Under the pieces are notes generated by a model, which had not been told where the DNA came from, made no database searches, and saw only the letters and a program-made list of their open reading frames with translations. DNA of 64,000 nt from NCBI RefSeq assembly GCF_003602095.1, contig NZ_RAHH01000001.1, forward strand, positions 1 through 64,000, given 5' to 3'. This document shows positions 1 through 59,639 of the stretch, piece after piece. Source of the DNA: Rahnella woolbedingensis. GTDB taxonomy: Bacteria; Pseudomonadota; Gammaproteobacteria; Enterobacterales; Enterobacteriaceae. Position 1 is the first letter of the stretch. Every line of letters begins with the position of its first letter. The translations under genes and the position numbers were made by a program.

Positions 1-222
1 CTTGCTATCAGGCAATACTTATGAGTAAATGCGTGCAGCCTGTGTTGCAGCGCTATTTATGTATGAGAGTAGAGTAAAGCAGTTCCTCCCAGACGTTATC
101 TCTTTCCCGATGATTCCGCTTCCAAGACGAACCTTCTAAGTCCTCCCCATAAGTAATTGTCTGAACTATTGGCCAAAATTGCCGAATGGCAGGATTTTAT
201 ATTTCGTAATAAGGTTTTAAAG
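1..222 (+). promoter_or_regulatory. Upstream region and leader of the first cold-shock gene
   Basis: These 222 bases precede the first cold-shock gene. I see no convincing protein gene here and could not place a promoter with confidence. A long leader is typical of csp genes. The ribosome binding site AAGG lies 8 bases before the ATG at 223. An in-frame TTG at 157 would add 22 residues unlike any cold-shock protein, so I treat that stretch as untranslated leader. Confidence 0.4.
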
Positions 223-984: not shown

Positions 985-2220
985 ATGGATACCGATATGT
1001 CTCACCCGGTTATATCTCTCGCTTCAGCCCGCACCCTGCATTTATCTGCGCAAAATCTCTTAAAACCCCTGACCAGAAAACCGTCTGCGGCCGATGTTGT
1101 AGAGGCTATCCGTGACATGGGATTGCTGCAAATCGACACCATCAGCGTGGTGGCCCGCAGCCCTTATCTGGTTCTGTTCAGTCGCCTGGGTAGCTATTCT
1201 CCGCAATGGCTGGAAGCAGCCCTCGCCAGCGGAAAAATCTTTGAGTACTGGGCGCATGAAGCCTGCTTTATTCCCCGCGAAGATTATGGACTGCTGCGAC
1301 ACCGGATGCTGGATCCACAGGGAATGGGCTGGAAGTTTTCCCAGGCCTGGTTTGATGAGCATGAATCAGATATTCAGGCGCTGCTGGGGCATATTGCAGA
1401 GAACGGTCCTGTGCGTTCGGCCGATTTCACCGCAGATAAAAAATCTGCCAGTGGCTGGTGGGACTGGAAACCGCATAAAAAACATCTGGAAACGTTGTTC
1501 ACCTCGGGAAAACTGATGGTGTCTGAGCGCCGCAATTTCCACCGGGTATACGACCTGGCCGAACGGGTTATGCCAGGCTGGGATGATGCCAGCCAGACTC
1601 TTAATCAAGATGCGGCACAATTCCAGATGCTGCGACGCTCGGCGCAGTATCTCGGCATTTTCAAACCGGAATGGCTGGCTGACTATTACCGCCTCAGGCG
1701 CGTGAATACCCAAGCTGTTATTGAACAATTACTGGCAGATGAGGAAATCACACCGGTCGAAGTCACAGGGCTTGAAGGTGTTTTTTACGTTCATCAGCAA
1801 CAGTTTTCTTTGTTGCAACAAGCGACAGAATCAAAAATAAGGTCAACCGTCACCACGCTGCTTTCACCTTTTGATCCGGTAGTGTGGGACCGCAAACGCG
1901 CGTCGGTGCTGTTTAATTTTGAATACCGGATTGAGTGTTATACGCCGCAGGCAAAACGCCAGTACGGGTATTTCACGCTTCCGGTATTACAGCGTGGTGA
2001 ACTGATTGGCCGTGTCGATGCCAAAATGCATCGCAAAGAAAAAATCCTGGAAGTGAAAAGTTTGCATCTTGAACCACAGGTCGCAATGACGACGCGTCGC
2101 GCGCAGGATATTCACGGTGCGATTACGCGGTTTGCTCAGTGGCAGGGCGCTGAAAACGTATTGACGGGAAATGTGCCTGAAACACTTATGGTGTTGTGGG
2201 GGACTGACTGGCAGGTCTGA
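985..2220 (+). CDS. ycaQ: Winged-helix DNA glycosylase YcaQ (interstrand-crosslink repair)
   Basis: A 411-residue member of the AlkZ/YcaQ (HTH_42) family. E. coli YcaQ is a DNA glycosylase that unhooks nitrogen-mustard-type interstrand crosslinks and removes N7-alkylguanine. The catalytic QxD motif is present as Q49-I50-D51, inside a stretch (LLQIDTISVVARSPYLVLFS) characteristic of the family, and the later block SPFDPVVWDRKRA is also conserved. Length matches E. coli (about 410). Neither ATG 985 nor ATG 997 has a strong ribosome binding site; the E. coli protein aligns from the second one (MSHP). In E. coli the gene lies between lpxK and ycaR; here two cold-shock genes lie directly upstream. 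Confidence 0.92.
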   Translation: MDTDMSHPVISLASARTLHLSAQNLLKPLTRKPSAADVVEAIRDMGLLQIDTISVVARSPYLVLFSRLGSYSPQWLEAALASGKIFEYWAHEACFIPREDYGLLRHRMLDPQGMGWKFSQAWFDEHESDIQALLGHIAENGPVRSADFTADKKSASGWWDWKPHKKHLETLFTSGKLMVSERRNFHRVYDLAERVMPGWDDASQTLNQDAAQFQMLRRSAQYLGIFKPEWLADYYRLRRVNTQAVIEQLLADEEITPVEVTGLEGVFYVHQQQFSLLQQATESKIRSTVTTLLSPFDPVVWDRKRASVLFNFEYRIECYTPQAKRQYGYFTLPVLQRGELIGRVDAKMHRKEKILEVKSLHLEPQVAMTTRRAQDIHGAITRFAQWQGAENVLTGNVPETLMVLWGTDWQV

Positions 2221-2261
2221 TGCTGTAAATAACGTTCTGTAAGTGGGATCCCGCAAAATGA

Positions 2262-2284
2262 AACGGCTGCGTCAGGCAGCCGTT
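2262..2284. terminator. Hairpin serving the small minus-strand RNA and/or ycaQ
   Basis: Perfect 9-bp stem AACGGCTGC/GCAGCCGTT with a 5-base loop. The 3' tail is TCATTTT on the minus strand and ATTTC on the plus strand, so it may end the small RNA, ycaQ, or both. Confidence 0.6.
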
Positions 2285-2316
2285 ATTTCACGATGATTGC
2301 AGGTGTGACTTCAGTA

Positions 2317-2367
2317 TTAGTGACTGAAGTTAGCGAACATTGCGATAATTTTGTTAATGATTTTCAT
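2317..2367 (-). CDS. Small amphipathic peptide resembling the AzuC N-terminus
   Basis: A 16-residue ORF, MKIINKIIAMFANFSH, starting at ATG 2367 with a purine-rich AGAAGAG about 8 bases upstream. Aligned without gaps to the first 16 residues of E. coli AzuC as I recall it (MKLRKILKSMFNNYCK), M1, K2, M10, F11 and N13 are identical and most other positions are conservative (I/L, A/S, F/Y, S/C, H/K). Hydrophobic I3, I4, I7, I8, M10, F11, F14 against K2, N5, K6, N13 gives an amphipathic helix, as reported for membrane-associated AzuC. The C-terminal part of the 28-residue E. coli protein is absent. The identification rests on a short alignment from memory. Confidence 0.5.
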   Translation of the reverse strand: MKIINKIIAMFANFSH

Positions 2368-2394
2368 TTTAGTGCTCTTCTGTGGGGTTGATAG

Positions 2395-2410
2395 TGTGAC
2401 CTACATCACA
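2395..2410. promoter_or_regulatory. Perfect CRP core site TGTGA-N6-TCACA
   Basis: The sequence TGTGACCTACATCACA matches the CRP core consensus at all ten specified bases. It starts one base inside the predicted transcription start (about 2409) of the small minus-strand RNA, so bound CRP would block that promoter. Its centre is about 135 bp upstream of a candidate ycaR promoter, too far for a standard class I or II activator site there. Confidence 0.75.
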
Positions 2411-2415
2411 AAAAA

Positions 2416-2444
2416 ATTGTACTCCCACTCAATCTTCAACGCAA
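2416..2444 (-). promoter_or_regulatory. Sigma70 promoter of the AzuC-like transcript
   Basis: Minus strand: -35 TTGCGT (2444-2439), 17-base spacer, -10 TACAAT (2421-2416). Expected start near 2409, directly next to the CRP core. Confidence 0.65.
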
Positions 2445-2514
2445 TCACTCCCTGATGAAATTTTTCATTCACATTGAATTAACCTTTTAGGGGTAGGCGC
2501 GGGCGAACTGAGGA

Positions 2515-2543
2515 TTAACGGGTGACAGGCGTTATGCTATCCT
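2515..2543 (+). promoter_or_regulatory. Candidate promoter of ycaR-kdsB
   Basis: TTAACG (2515-2520), 17-base spacer, TATCCT (2538-2543), giving a leader of about 80 bases before ycaR. The match to consensus is only moderate. Nothing else was recognised between 2445 and 2628. Confidence 0.35.
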
Positions 2544-2628
2544 CTGGGACCGCTGTCTTGTGTTTTCCAATGTTTTTTTGCGTTACACCTTGCTGAAAAC
2601 GCGGTGTATTCGCCTCCGGGAGGAACTT

Positions 2629-2811
2629 ATGGATCATCGTTTACTTGAAATCGTTGCATGCCCTGTCTGCAACGGGAAGCTCTACTTTAATAAAGAATCA
2701 CAGGAACTGGTGTGTAAGGCAGACAGCCTGGCTTATCCGGTTCGCGACGGTATCCCGGTATTATTAGAAAATGAAGCCCGTCCGCTTTCTGTTGATGAGA
2801 CGCATCCATGA
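2629..2811 (+). CDS. ycaR: Trm112-family small protein YcaR
   Basis: A 60-residue protein of the Trm112/UPF0434 family, the same length as E. coli YcaR. It begins [18 protein letters not shown]; the CPVC pair looks like half a zinc knuckle, with one more cysteine further on (ELVCKAD). Start ATG 2629 is fixed by a strong GGGAGG ribosome binding site; an upstream in-frame start at 2560 lacks family similarity. Its stop overlaps the kdsB start (ATGA), indicating translational coupling. Trm112 proteins activate methyltransferases in eukaryotes, but the role of YcaR is not established to my knowledge. Confidence 0.92.
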
Positions 2812-3560
2812 GTTTTATTGCGATTATTCCGGCCCGGTTTGGGTCAAGCCGTTTACCCGGCAAGCCGCTGGCAGATATCAACGGCAAACCGATGGTTGTG
2901 CATGTGATGGAACGCGCCCTTGAGTCCGGGGCGAAAAGAGTGATTGTGGCAACCGATCATCCTGATGTGGCAAAAGCTGTCGAAGCAGCCGGTGGCGAAG
3001 TCTGCCTCACTCGTCCTGATCATGAGTCCGGTACTGAGCGTCTGGCTGAAGTGATTGAGTTATGCCAGTTTGCTGATGACGAAATTATCGTGAACGTGCA
3101 GGGTGATGAGCCGCTGATCCCGCCGGTGATCATTCGTCAGGTGGCAGACAATCTGGCAAAAAGCGAAGCCGGTATGGCGACGTTGGCCGTGCCTATTGAA
3201 ACGGCGGAAGAAGCGTTCAACCCGAATGCTGTAAAAGTCGTTCGTGATGCACGGGGTTATGCGCTGTATTTCTCACGGGCAACTATTCCGTGGGAACGTG
3301 AGCGTTTTGCCGTCTCGAAAGAGACCGTAGGGGATACTTTCCTCCGCCACATCGGCATTTATGCCTATCGCGCAGGGTTTATCCGCCAGTATGTTAAATG
3401 GGAACCGAGCCAGCTTGAGCACATCGAACTGCTCGAACAGCTGCGGGTACTGTGGTACGGTGAAAAAATCCACGTTGATGTCGCGAAAGCTATTCCGTCC
3501 GTGGGTGTGGATACGGCAGAAGATTTAGAACGCGTGCGCGCAATCCTGAGCCCTAAATAA
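2808..3560 (+). CDS. kdsB: 3-deoxy-manno-octulosonate cytidylyltransferase (CMP-Kdo synthetase)
   Basis: KdsB activates Kdo with CTP to give CMP-Kdo, the donor that WaaA uses to build the inner core of lipopolysaccharide; cytoplasmic. The 250-residue product has the nucleotidyltransferase N-terminus [19 protein letters not shown] and the conserved segments NVQGDEP (about residues 96-102) and [10 protein letters not shown]. coli KdsB is 248 residues. Translation is coupled to ycaR through the 4-base overlap. A probable terminator follows at 3586-3615. Confidence 0.97.
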
Positions 3561-31767: not shown

Positions 31768-31804
31768 TCAGAGTCAATTATTCGGCCAATATGCCGGTTA
31801 TCGT

Positions 31805-31842
31805 TTCCAATTAAGCCGCGCTTAGTCGATAATACCGCCCCG
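31805..31842 (+). promoter_or_regulatory. pyrD promoter and C/G-rich start region
   Basis: TTCCAA (31805-31810), 17-base spacer, GATAAT (31828-31833), with the predicted start in CCGCCCCG (31835-31842). In E. coli and Salmonella pyrC and pyrD choose between C and G starts according to CTP/GTP level; the run of C followed by G here would allow the same. Confidence 0.5.
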
Positions 31843-31870
31843 TCTAGCCACCGGGAATCCAGGAGTCTCC

Positions 31871-32881
31871 ATGTATTATCCTCTTGTCAGGAAAGCACTG
31901 TTTCAGCTCGACCCAGAGCGCGCCCACGAGTTAACCTTTCGTCAGCTGAGCCGTATTTCCGGCACCCCTTTTGAATTCTTGATCCGCCAGTCAGTGCCCA
32001 CCAAGCCGGTAAACTGCATGGGATTATCCTTTAAGAACCCGTTGGGACTGGCCGCAGGCCTGGATAAAAACGGCGAATGTATTGATGCACTCGGTGCAAT
32101 GGGCTTTGGATTTATTGAGGTCGGCACAGTCACACCACGTGCGCAGGCAGGTAATGATAAGCCGCGTTTATTCCGCATCGTTGAAGCAGAAGGCCTGATT
32201 AACCGCATGGGCTTTAATAACCATGGCGTGGATAATCTGGTGAATAATGTCAAAAAATCACATTTTGGCGGCATTCTGGGGATTAATATTGGCAAGAATA
32301 AAGACACGCCTGTTGAGCACGGCGCTGACGATTATCTGACCTGTATGGAAAAGGTATATCCGTATGCCGGTTATATCGCGGTGAATATTTCTTCGCCTAA
32401 TACCCCCGGTTTACGTTCACTGCAATACGGTGAAGCGTTGGATGATTTGCTGGCGGCGATTAAGAATAAACAGCTCGAACTTCAGCAGCGCCATCAGAAA
32501 TATGTGCCGGTTGCTGTGAAGATCGCGCCGGATCTGTCTGAGGAAGAATTGATCCAAATAGCTGACAGTCTGGTTCGTCATAATATGGACGGCGTTATCG
32601 CCACCAATACCACGCTCGATCGTAAACTGGTTCAGGGTCTGAATTATTGTGAGCAGGTCGGTGGTCTGAGCGGGCGTCCGGTGCAGTTGCGCAGTACAGA
32701 AATCATCCGCATGTTGTCAAATGAACTACAGGGACGTCTGCCTATTATTGGCGTCGGTGGCATTGATTCATTAACGGCTGCGCGTGAAAAAATGGCGGCG
32801 GGTGCATCATTAATTCAAATCTATTCCGGCTTTATCTTCAAAGGTCCGGGTTTGATCAAAGATATTGTTACCCATATCTAA
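31871..32881 (+). CDS. pyrD: Dihydroorotate dehydrogenase (quinone), class 2
   Basis: A 336-residue membrane-associated flavoenzyme, the same length as E. coli PyrD, oxidising dihydroorotate to orotate with quinone in pyrimidine synthesis. The N-terminal amphipathic extension ([20 protein letters not shown]) marks class 2. FMN and substrate segments are visible: [35 protein letters not shown] with the catalytic Ser, and GVGGIDS. The start follows AGGAG. Confidence 0.98.
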
Positions 32882-59268: not shown

Positions 59269-59356
59269 GGAGGGGTGGCCGAGCGGCTGAAGGCACCGGT
59301 CTTGAAAACCGGCGATGGGAAACCATTCAAGAGTTCGAATCTCTTCTCCTCCGCCA
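59269..59356 (+). tRNA. serT: tRNA-Ser (anticodon UGA), copy 1
   Basis: An 88-nt class II tRNA including encoded CCA. Acceptor GGAGGGG pairs with CTCCTCC; D-arm GGCCGAGCGGCTGAAGGC; anticodon stem CCGGT/ACCGG around CTTGAAA gives anticodon TGA; long variable arm CGATGGGAAACCATTC; T-arm AAGAG-TTCGAAT-CTCTT. Same position as E. coli serT next to yccA. Own promoter and terminator. Confidence 0.95.
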
Positions 59357-59551: not shown

Positions 59552-59639
59552 GGAGGGGTGGCCGAGCGGCTGAAGGCACCGGTCTTGAAAACCGGCGATG
59601 GGAAACCATTCGAGAGTTCGAATCTCTCCTCCTCCGCCA
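59552..59639 (+). tRNA. tRNA-Ser (anticodon UGA), copy 2
   Basis: 88 nt, identical to copy 1 except for two bases that form one pair: the first T-stem pair is G-C here (GAGAG/CTCTC) and A-T in copy 1. Anticodon TGA, encoded CCA. It has a different promoter from copy 1 but a closely similar terminator, as expected for a duplicated gene plus 3' flank. E. coli has a single copy at this place as I recall. Confidence 0.95.

Follow-up and report, generated by a model that had tools for sequence, protein, structure and literature searches.

A conserved and apparently undescribed family of small-protein genes with a CRP-type site at the promoter, in the ycaQ-ycaR gap of Rahnella and near atpC

The RNAs AzuCR and Spot 42 of Escherichia coli and VcdRP of Vibrio cholerae have been reported as CRP-repressed, and the peptides encoded by AzuCR and VcdRP bind enzymes (PMC8672173, partial text). 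In the same partial text (PMC8672173), AzuC is described as binding and activating GlpD, and VcdRP as a CRP-repressed RNA of 306 nt that codes for a small protein of 29 residues tied to carbon metabolism, with a CRP site upstream of its -35 element and a base-pairing cytosine run. The E. coli azuC gene is located at 1987873-1987959 of NC_000913, beside yecJ and yecR, and codes for 28 residues with a C-terminal K-x-VPPG motif on an RNA annotated at 159 nt. Here we describe a unit of similar layout in the window, which is the whole stretch of 64,000 nucleotides analyzed from Rahnella woolbedingensis. It resembles AzuCR in being a short unit with CRP-like sites, an amphipathic peptide that starts with MK, and a terminator, and its predicted RNA of about 155 nt is close to AzuCR in size. 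On the other hand, the Rahnella gene lies in the ycaQ-ycaR gap and its peptide has 16 residues without the K-x-VPPG motif. The CRP-like sites of AzuCR are, in our reading, upstream of and inside the promoter, whereas that of Rahnella lies over the start. Spot 42, which would share CRP repression with the Rahnella unit, codes for a 15-residue peptide, SpfP, and both peptide and locus differ from those of Rahnella.

The unit is found on the minus strand between ycaQ, which ends at 2220 and is convergent with it, and the 60-codon ycaR, which starts at 2629 on the plus strand. The following elements were read from the sequence: a -35-like TTGCGT (2439..2444), a -10 TACAAT (2416..2421) after a 17-nt spacer, a Shine-Dalgarno-like AGAAGAG (2375..2381), and the 16-codon ORF MKIINKIIAMFANFSH (2317..2367, with the ATG at 2367 and the stop codon ending at 2317). 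A terminator scan placed a 9-bp hairpin at 2262..2284 of the same strand. The initial annotation had proposed this arrangement of promoter-like site, 16-codon ORF, and hairpin (2444-2262, minus strand), and its coordinates proved correct when re-read. Two features were absent from it, namely a CRP-type palindrome, TGTGATGTAGGTCACA (2395..2410), which overlaps the predicted start at about 2408 and to which CRP would bind, and a 3'UTR block, ACCTGCAATCATCGTGAA (2287..2304, minus strand), which is conserved in the RNA alignment of the genus. Together, the -35 and -10 elements match 8 of 12 consensus bases, and the promoter was missed by a simple scan because the -35 matches just three of six. The terminator scan found one terminator versus 1.4 expected in shuffles, i.e., not above chance, and the hairpin probably serves both the peptide unit and the convergent ycaQ. 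The case for the gene is its conservation; neither promoter nor terminator is remarkable as a pattern.

The locus matches once in its own genome. BLASTN detected it in all 13 other genomes of the genus that were searched and in one other genus (E 2.9e-7), and the remaining matches among 59 genomes were short and near chance. An ORF of 16 codons with an identical stop position was present in the 15 oriented loci, derived from 14 Rahnella genomes and the one other genus; in these aligned loci the start of the ORF was placed by a regular expression and the stop was not. Of the earlier interpretation, the small-protein gene is supported and is conserved, on an RNA predicted to be short. The peptides of the 15 closest loci follow the pattern MK[TIR]INKIIA[ML][FL]ANFS[HQNA]. 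Values of pN/pS, calculated as uncorrected pairwise counts without a tree, were 0.092 within the genus (11 unique ORFs), 0.178 for the 39 unique 16-codon ORFs of the FA type, and 0.275 for 68 unique ORFs from all members of the family described below (codons 2-12). The initial annotation had suggested examining the conservation of the ORF among relatives, and these values point to a constrained ORF; across genera, the peptide outlasts the 3' regions. A conserved small ORF under purifying selection is also a characteristic of CRP-repressed dual-function RNAs, which are treated here as a working type and are no family defined by sequence.

Among 56 unique peptides, position 5 was N or H in every case, and A9, F11, and N13 occurred in 54, 54, and 43, respectively. 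The constancy of M, K2, K6, I7, and the class of residue 8 is no evidence, because the extraction of members demanded them; positions 4, 5, and 9 were fixed by one of the search patterns (the ORF-only pattern) and are therefore biased for the loci that it supplied. When residues 2-13 of the window peptide were modeled as a helix, the hydrophobic moment was 0.62, a value reached by 2.1% of shuffles and in line with the amphipathic character that had been proposed for it. Amphipathicity varies, with the moment of MKRFHKIIALFSNLSF being reached by 8.6% of shuffles and that of AzuC by 7.2%.

The ORF-only pattern matched 40 of the 392 genomes of the window's GTDB family, with zero matches in the rows of a reversed-pattern control. 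A second pattern demanded a CRP palindrome 22-50 nt upstream of the ORF, so that the co-occurrence of both is built into its matches. It matched 77 of the 392 genomes, belonging to 30 of 154 genera, with one match per genome, and recovered all 40 of the ORF-only genomes. The same pattern gave 10 matches over 345 genomes of the order, every one inside the window's GTDB family, and no matches in 316 genomes from other families of the order. With a single match in each genome, a move of the gene seems likelier than a duplication. After one regular-expression artefact (L164) was removed from 99 sequences, 98 distinct members remained, 48 of them beside YcaR, 43 beside the C-terminus of AtpC, and seven without a marker. 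Positions were typed by a short-motif test on the translated neighbors, and four of the seven unmarked members had been fetched via YcaR. In these searches the small-protein family was confined to the GTDB family of the window and occupied two sites, the ycaQ-ycaR gap and a position near (downstream of) atpC. The atpC-type member of L049 is followed by a convergent 462-residue ORF (1632-3020), which we take to resemble alginate or pectate lyases.

Searching by YcaR yielded 80 named loci, 28 of which carried a member upstream. These were derived from Rahnella, Yersinia, Serratia, Ewingella, Hafnia, Rouxiella, a Sodalis, and two MAGs, and most Serratia members start one residue earlier (MIK or VIK). 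No member was found at the other 52 loci, including those of Pantoea, Erwinia, Pectobacterium, Chimaeribacter, Serratia oryzae, and Y. similis; one of them (L071) offers only 245 nt upstream. A blastn search with one atpC-type member against 20,395 E. coli records gave no match, and neither did one with the window locus against plasmids, both being searches that a short diverged copy could escape. The atpC-glmU gap of E. coli K-12 contained no CRP-like site by regular expression and no such ORF by eye, and the ycaQ-ycaR gap of this strain, of 51 nt, contained no family member. NCBIfam and Pfam gave no match to three atpC-type peptides of 23 residues, and Rfam gave none relevant to the peptide locus, either over the whole window or permissively over 2200-2520. 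Proteins of fewer than 20 residues elude gene finders and profile libraries. In the literature within reach, from which subscription journals were largely missing, we found no report of a ycaQ/ycaR small RNA or of a CRP-linked sRNA between atpC and glmU, and six member peptide sequences did not appear in print. Apparently, this is a conserved family of small-protein genes that is unannotated and undescribed. In Yersinia pseudotuberculosis, the RNA Ysr206 was seen only in a crp mutant and direct CRP binding was described (PMC4376681 and PMC4585118, partial texts). Ysr206 might be the same gene as that of the 16-residue peptide, an idea that is not used in our argument; the ycaQ-ycaR gap of Y. 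similis, a close relative of Y. pseudotuberculosis, holds no family member.

The CRP-type palindrome of the window is perfect, lies directly 3' of the -10 element, and is retained in all 15 of the closest loci. The CRP site was not part of the query in the YcaR-based and ORF-only searches. A palindrome was nonetheless present at most 75 nt away in each of the 30 ORF-only loci fetched, and a CRP-like site accompanied 27 of the 28 members fetched by YcaR alone. L093 has the ORF and no recognized CRP-like site. The sequence ATTGCG of the -35 region was present in all 14 aligned loci of the genus. Over the whole family, a loose TTGNNN-15..19-TANNNT box ending 1-10 nt before the CRP site occurred in 98 of 98 members, versus a mean of 3.6 of 98 in 50 shuffles, the members being related rather than independent. 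Since this box stands just before the CRP site, CRP would cover the predicted start, which is the position of a repressor. By sequence, the unit has a CRP-type operator at its promoter, as do CRP-repressed dual-function RNAs, and both binding and repression at the palindrome are predicted on this basis. A second CRP-like site further upstream was detected in 33 of the 43 atpC-type members, one of the 48 ycaR-type members, and one of the seven unmarked members.

The predicted RNA (2411-2253) folds at -38.5 kcal/mol, with a z of -3.3 versus shuffles. In the 13 loci of the genus whose contig reaches that far (L013, where the contig ends, was omitted from the RNA alignment), the terminator stem is kept and invariant and therefore gives no covariation evidence either way. 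No RNA covariation beyond that of shuffles was detected in the alignment of the genus, and L015, from the other genus, differs in its 3' region. A candidate hairpin spanning the stop codon was rejected, as its one covarying pair was no more than in shuffles.

Within the 3' region, CACCTGC (2305-2299) is the complement of the first seven nucleotides of the sRNA FnrS (nt 1-7), and all 14 genus genomes contain FnrS with the 5' end GCAGGUG. In the partial text of the appendix of PMC7311995, G4 and G5 of FnrS pair with C-5 and C-6 of folX at ACCTGC. This hexamer occurs in all 13 aligned RNAs of the genus, and the whole block ACCTGCAATCATCGTGAA is identical in 12 of them. Among 69 sequence-thinned members of the family, ACCTGC was found in the UTRs of 31, versus a null mean of 2.5, when a 3' stretch of 110 nt was included. 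Because this stretch may overrun the terminator, the count was redone with 50 nt, which gave 28 of 69 versus a null mean of 1.7 and a maximum of 6; the best hexamer of shuffled 69-member sets reached 15.9 on average and 24 at most. These counts are over related members and the motif was spotted post hoc. At the level of 20 coarse groups, ACCTGC reached at least half of the members in eight and was absent from two of the largest (0/18 and 0/8); large atpC-type groups lacked it. With one representative per coarse group, it occurred in 6 of 20 versus a null mean of 0.67 and a maximum of 4, which is not significant as a blind find, since the best hexamer of shuffled 20-group sets averages 6.2.

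The position of the motif also varies. Rahnella and most Yersinia members have it in the 3'UTR, and in 10 of the 15 members listed it lay no more than 22 nt ahead of the start codon; of the other five, some have it inside the CRP box. By the criterion of our script, the motif was the best pairing site for FnrS nt 1-12 in 10 of the 13 genus RNAs, and in the other three the best duplex begins 6-7 nt further upstream and extends across the motif. The duplex energies had only a modest advantage over shuffled RNAs, 0.5 to 26.5% of which reached them, and the motif site was not chosen when a full-length FnrS duplex was left unconstrained. We regard the FnrS link to those peptide RNAs that bear ACCTGC, which is post hoc and not universal, as a lead and not a finding. 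The 49 AzuC loci examined were a chosen part of the matches to the AzuC profile NF033642 plus E. coli, and 25 of them had ACCTG in the 60-nt stretch preceding the ORF. Among these loci (L031 and 48 others), the AzuCR 5'UTRs of many genomes keep a stretch like AACACCTGCATAAC, possibly an FnrS pairing site of AzuCR itself.

We consider it probable that the unit is a stand-alone CRP-repressed mRNA for a cationic amphipathic peptide that works in the manner of AzuCR and VcdRP. The gene layout, the constraint on the ORF, the CRP-type site, the two locations, and the distribution were computed directly, and computational support for a gene with its predicted operator is strong. According to this proposal, cAMP-CRP over the start site would shut off the peptide gene, and when glucose lowers cAMP an RNA of about 155 nt would be made and translated. 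By analogy with AzuC-GlpD and VcdP-GltA, the peptide would most likely dock on a membrane or on a central-carbon enzyme and tune it during sugar-rich growth. Where the RNA carries ACCTGC, as in Rahnella, pairing with the anaerobic sRNA FnrS may hold down expression when oxygen is absent. Transcription, translation, the peptide partner, and FnrS pairing are what we infer here from the layout and from these analogies. A broader reading, which we hold tentatively and with considerable doubt, is that the CRP-repressed micropeptides include, next to AzuC, this second family of independent origin, that the RNAs of both families share the FnrS hexamer, and that a single move took the gene between ycaQ-ycaR and atpC. 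If so, the peptide would be made only when glucose and oxygen are available together, and this control logic would be common to small amphipathic regulators acting on central or respiratory metabolism.

The initial annotation had seen in the peptide an N-terminus of the AzuC type. It is unlikely that the gene is a true AzuC homologue that was relocated and truncated and that its product acts on GlpD. Aligned without gaps, the peptide shares 5/16 residues with AzuC 1-16. By BLOSUM, AzuC was equalled by 1 of 643 other MK-starting 16-mers, and by the family profile 9 of 643 scored as well, a null that excluded peptides with KII or KIL and so biased the comparison in AzuC's favor. A faint resemblance remains, because residues 3-16 of AzuC outscore 99.2% of their shuffled versions by BLOSUM and 97.5% by profile; CRP-like sites are found in both families and ACCTG in the AzuCR 5'UTRs of 25 of 49 loci. 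However, four of five further AzuC sequences scored below zero with the family profile, and the CRP-like sites are, in our reading, placed differently. NF033642, for which membership was set at at least 30 bits, gave no match at E <= 0.01 in the window genome and five further genus genomes, with a positive E. coli control; the 16-mer itself falls below the 20-residue limit for a direct scan. As the initial annotation had noted, the C-terminal part of AzuC is missing: the peptide stops at residue 16, and the motif K-x-[VI]PPG-x-[ML], present in the 49 AzuC loci by construction of their search, is absent from MKIINKIIAMFANFSH. Furthermore, NF033642 was above its cut-off in 115 of the 392 family genomes and both families occurred together in 38, hence the 16-residue gene is not simply AzuC moved and shortened. 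Rfam has no AzuCR family, and E. coli azuCR itself yields only sub-threshold matches to other families. By these tests the 16-residue peptide represents a family separate from AzuC and similar to it in layout. What stands of the proposed likeness is a conserved amphipathic peptide gene with predicted CRP control of the type reported for AzuCR; membership in AzuC is unsupported. This suggests that AzuC is not the sole peptide of its type in these bacteria.

The remaining explanations concern what the RNA does and how CRP acts on it. A mainly non-coding sRNA with an incidental ORF would fit the identity of the 3'UTR block in 12 of 13 genus RNAs and the fold z of -3.3, yet the peptide is retained across genera while the 3' regions diverge, pN/pS is 0.09 to 0.28, and covariation is not above the control, so we consider this quite improbable. 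We give still less credence to the possibility that CRP acts from its site as an activator of a promoter closer to the ORF rather than as a repressor of the upstream promoter. The center of the site, about 35 nt before the ATG, could be read in that way, but a -35/-10-like pair is placed immediately upstream of the site in all 98 members and transcription starting 41.5 nt beyond the site center would begin inside the ORF. It is highly improbable that the ORF is the leader peptide of an attenuator, as a short ORF followed by a terminator hairpin might suggest, because in the two loci examined the downstream gene is convergent (ycaQ here and the large ORF in the atpC-type locus L049). For the preferred reading, that of a CRP-repressed peptide mRNA, the gene, present in 30 of 154 sampled genera, would tie a peptide effector to catabolite control (CRP) and possibly to oxygen (FnrS), a connection that can be tested.

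Other features were observed elsewhere in the window. The Rfam cspA thermoregulator (RF01766) was matched at 71-518, over a cold-shock gene that is followed by a second, more divergent CspA-like ORF (within 620-901). A PyrD leader RNA (RF02373) was detected at 31804-31876 with 49.6 bits versus a gathering score of 47, and two tRNA matches of similar score (59269-59353 and 59552-59636) lie about 280 bases apart.
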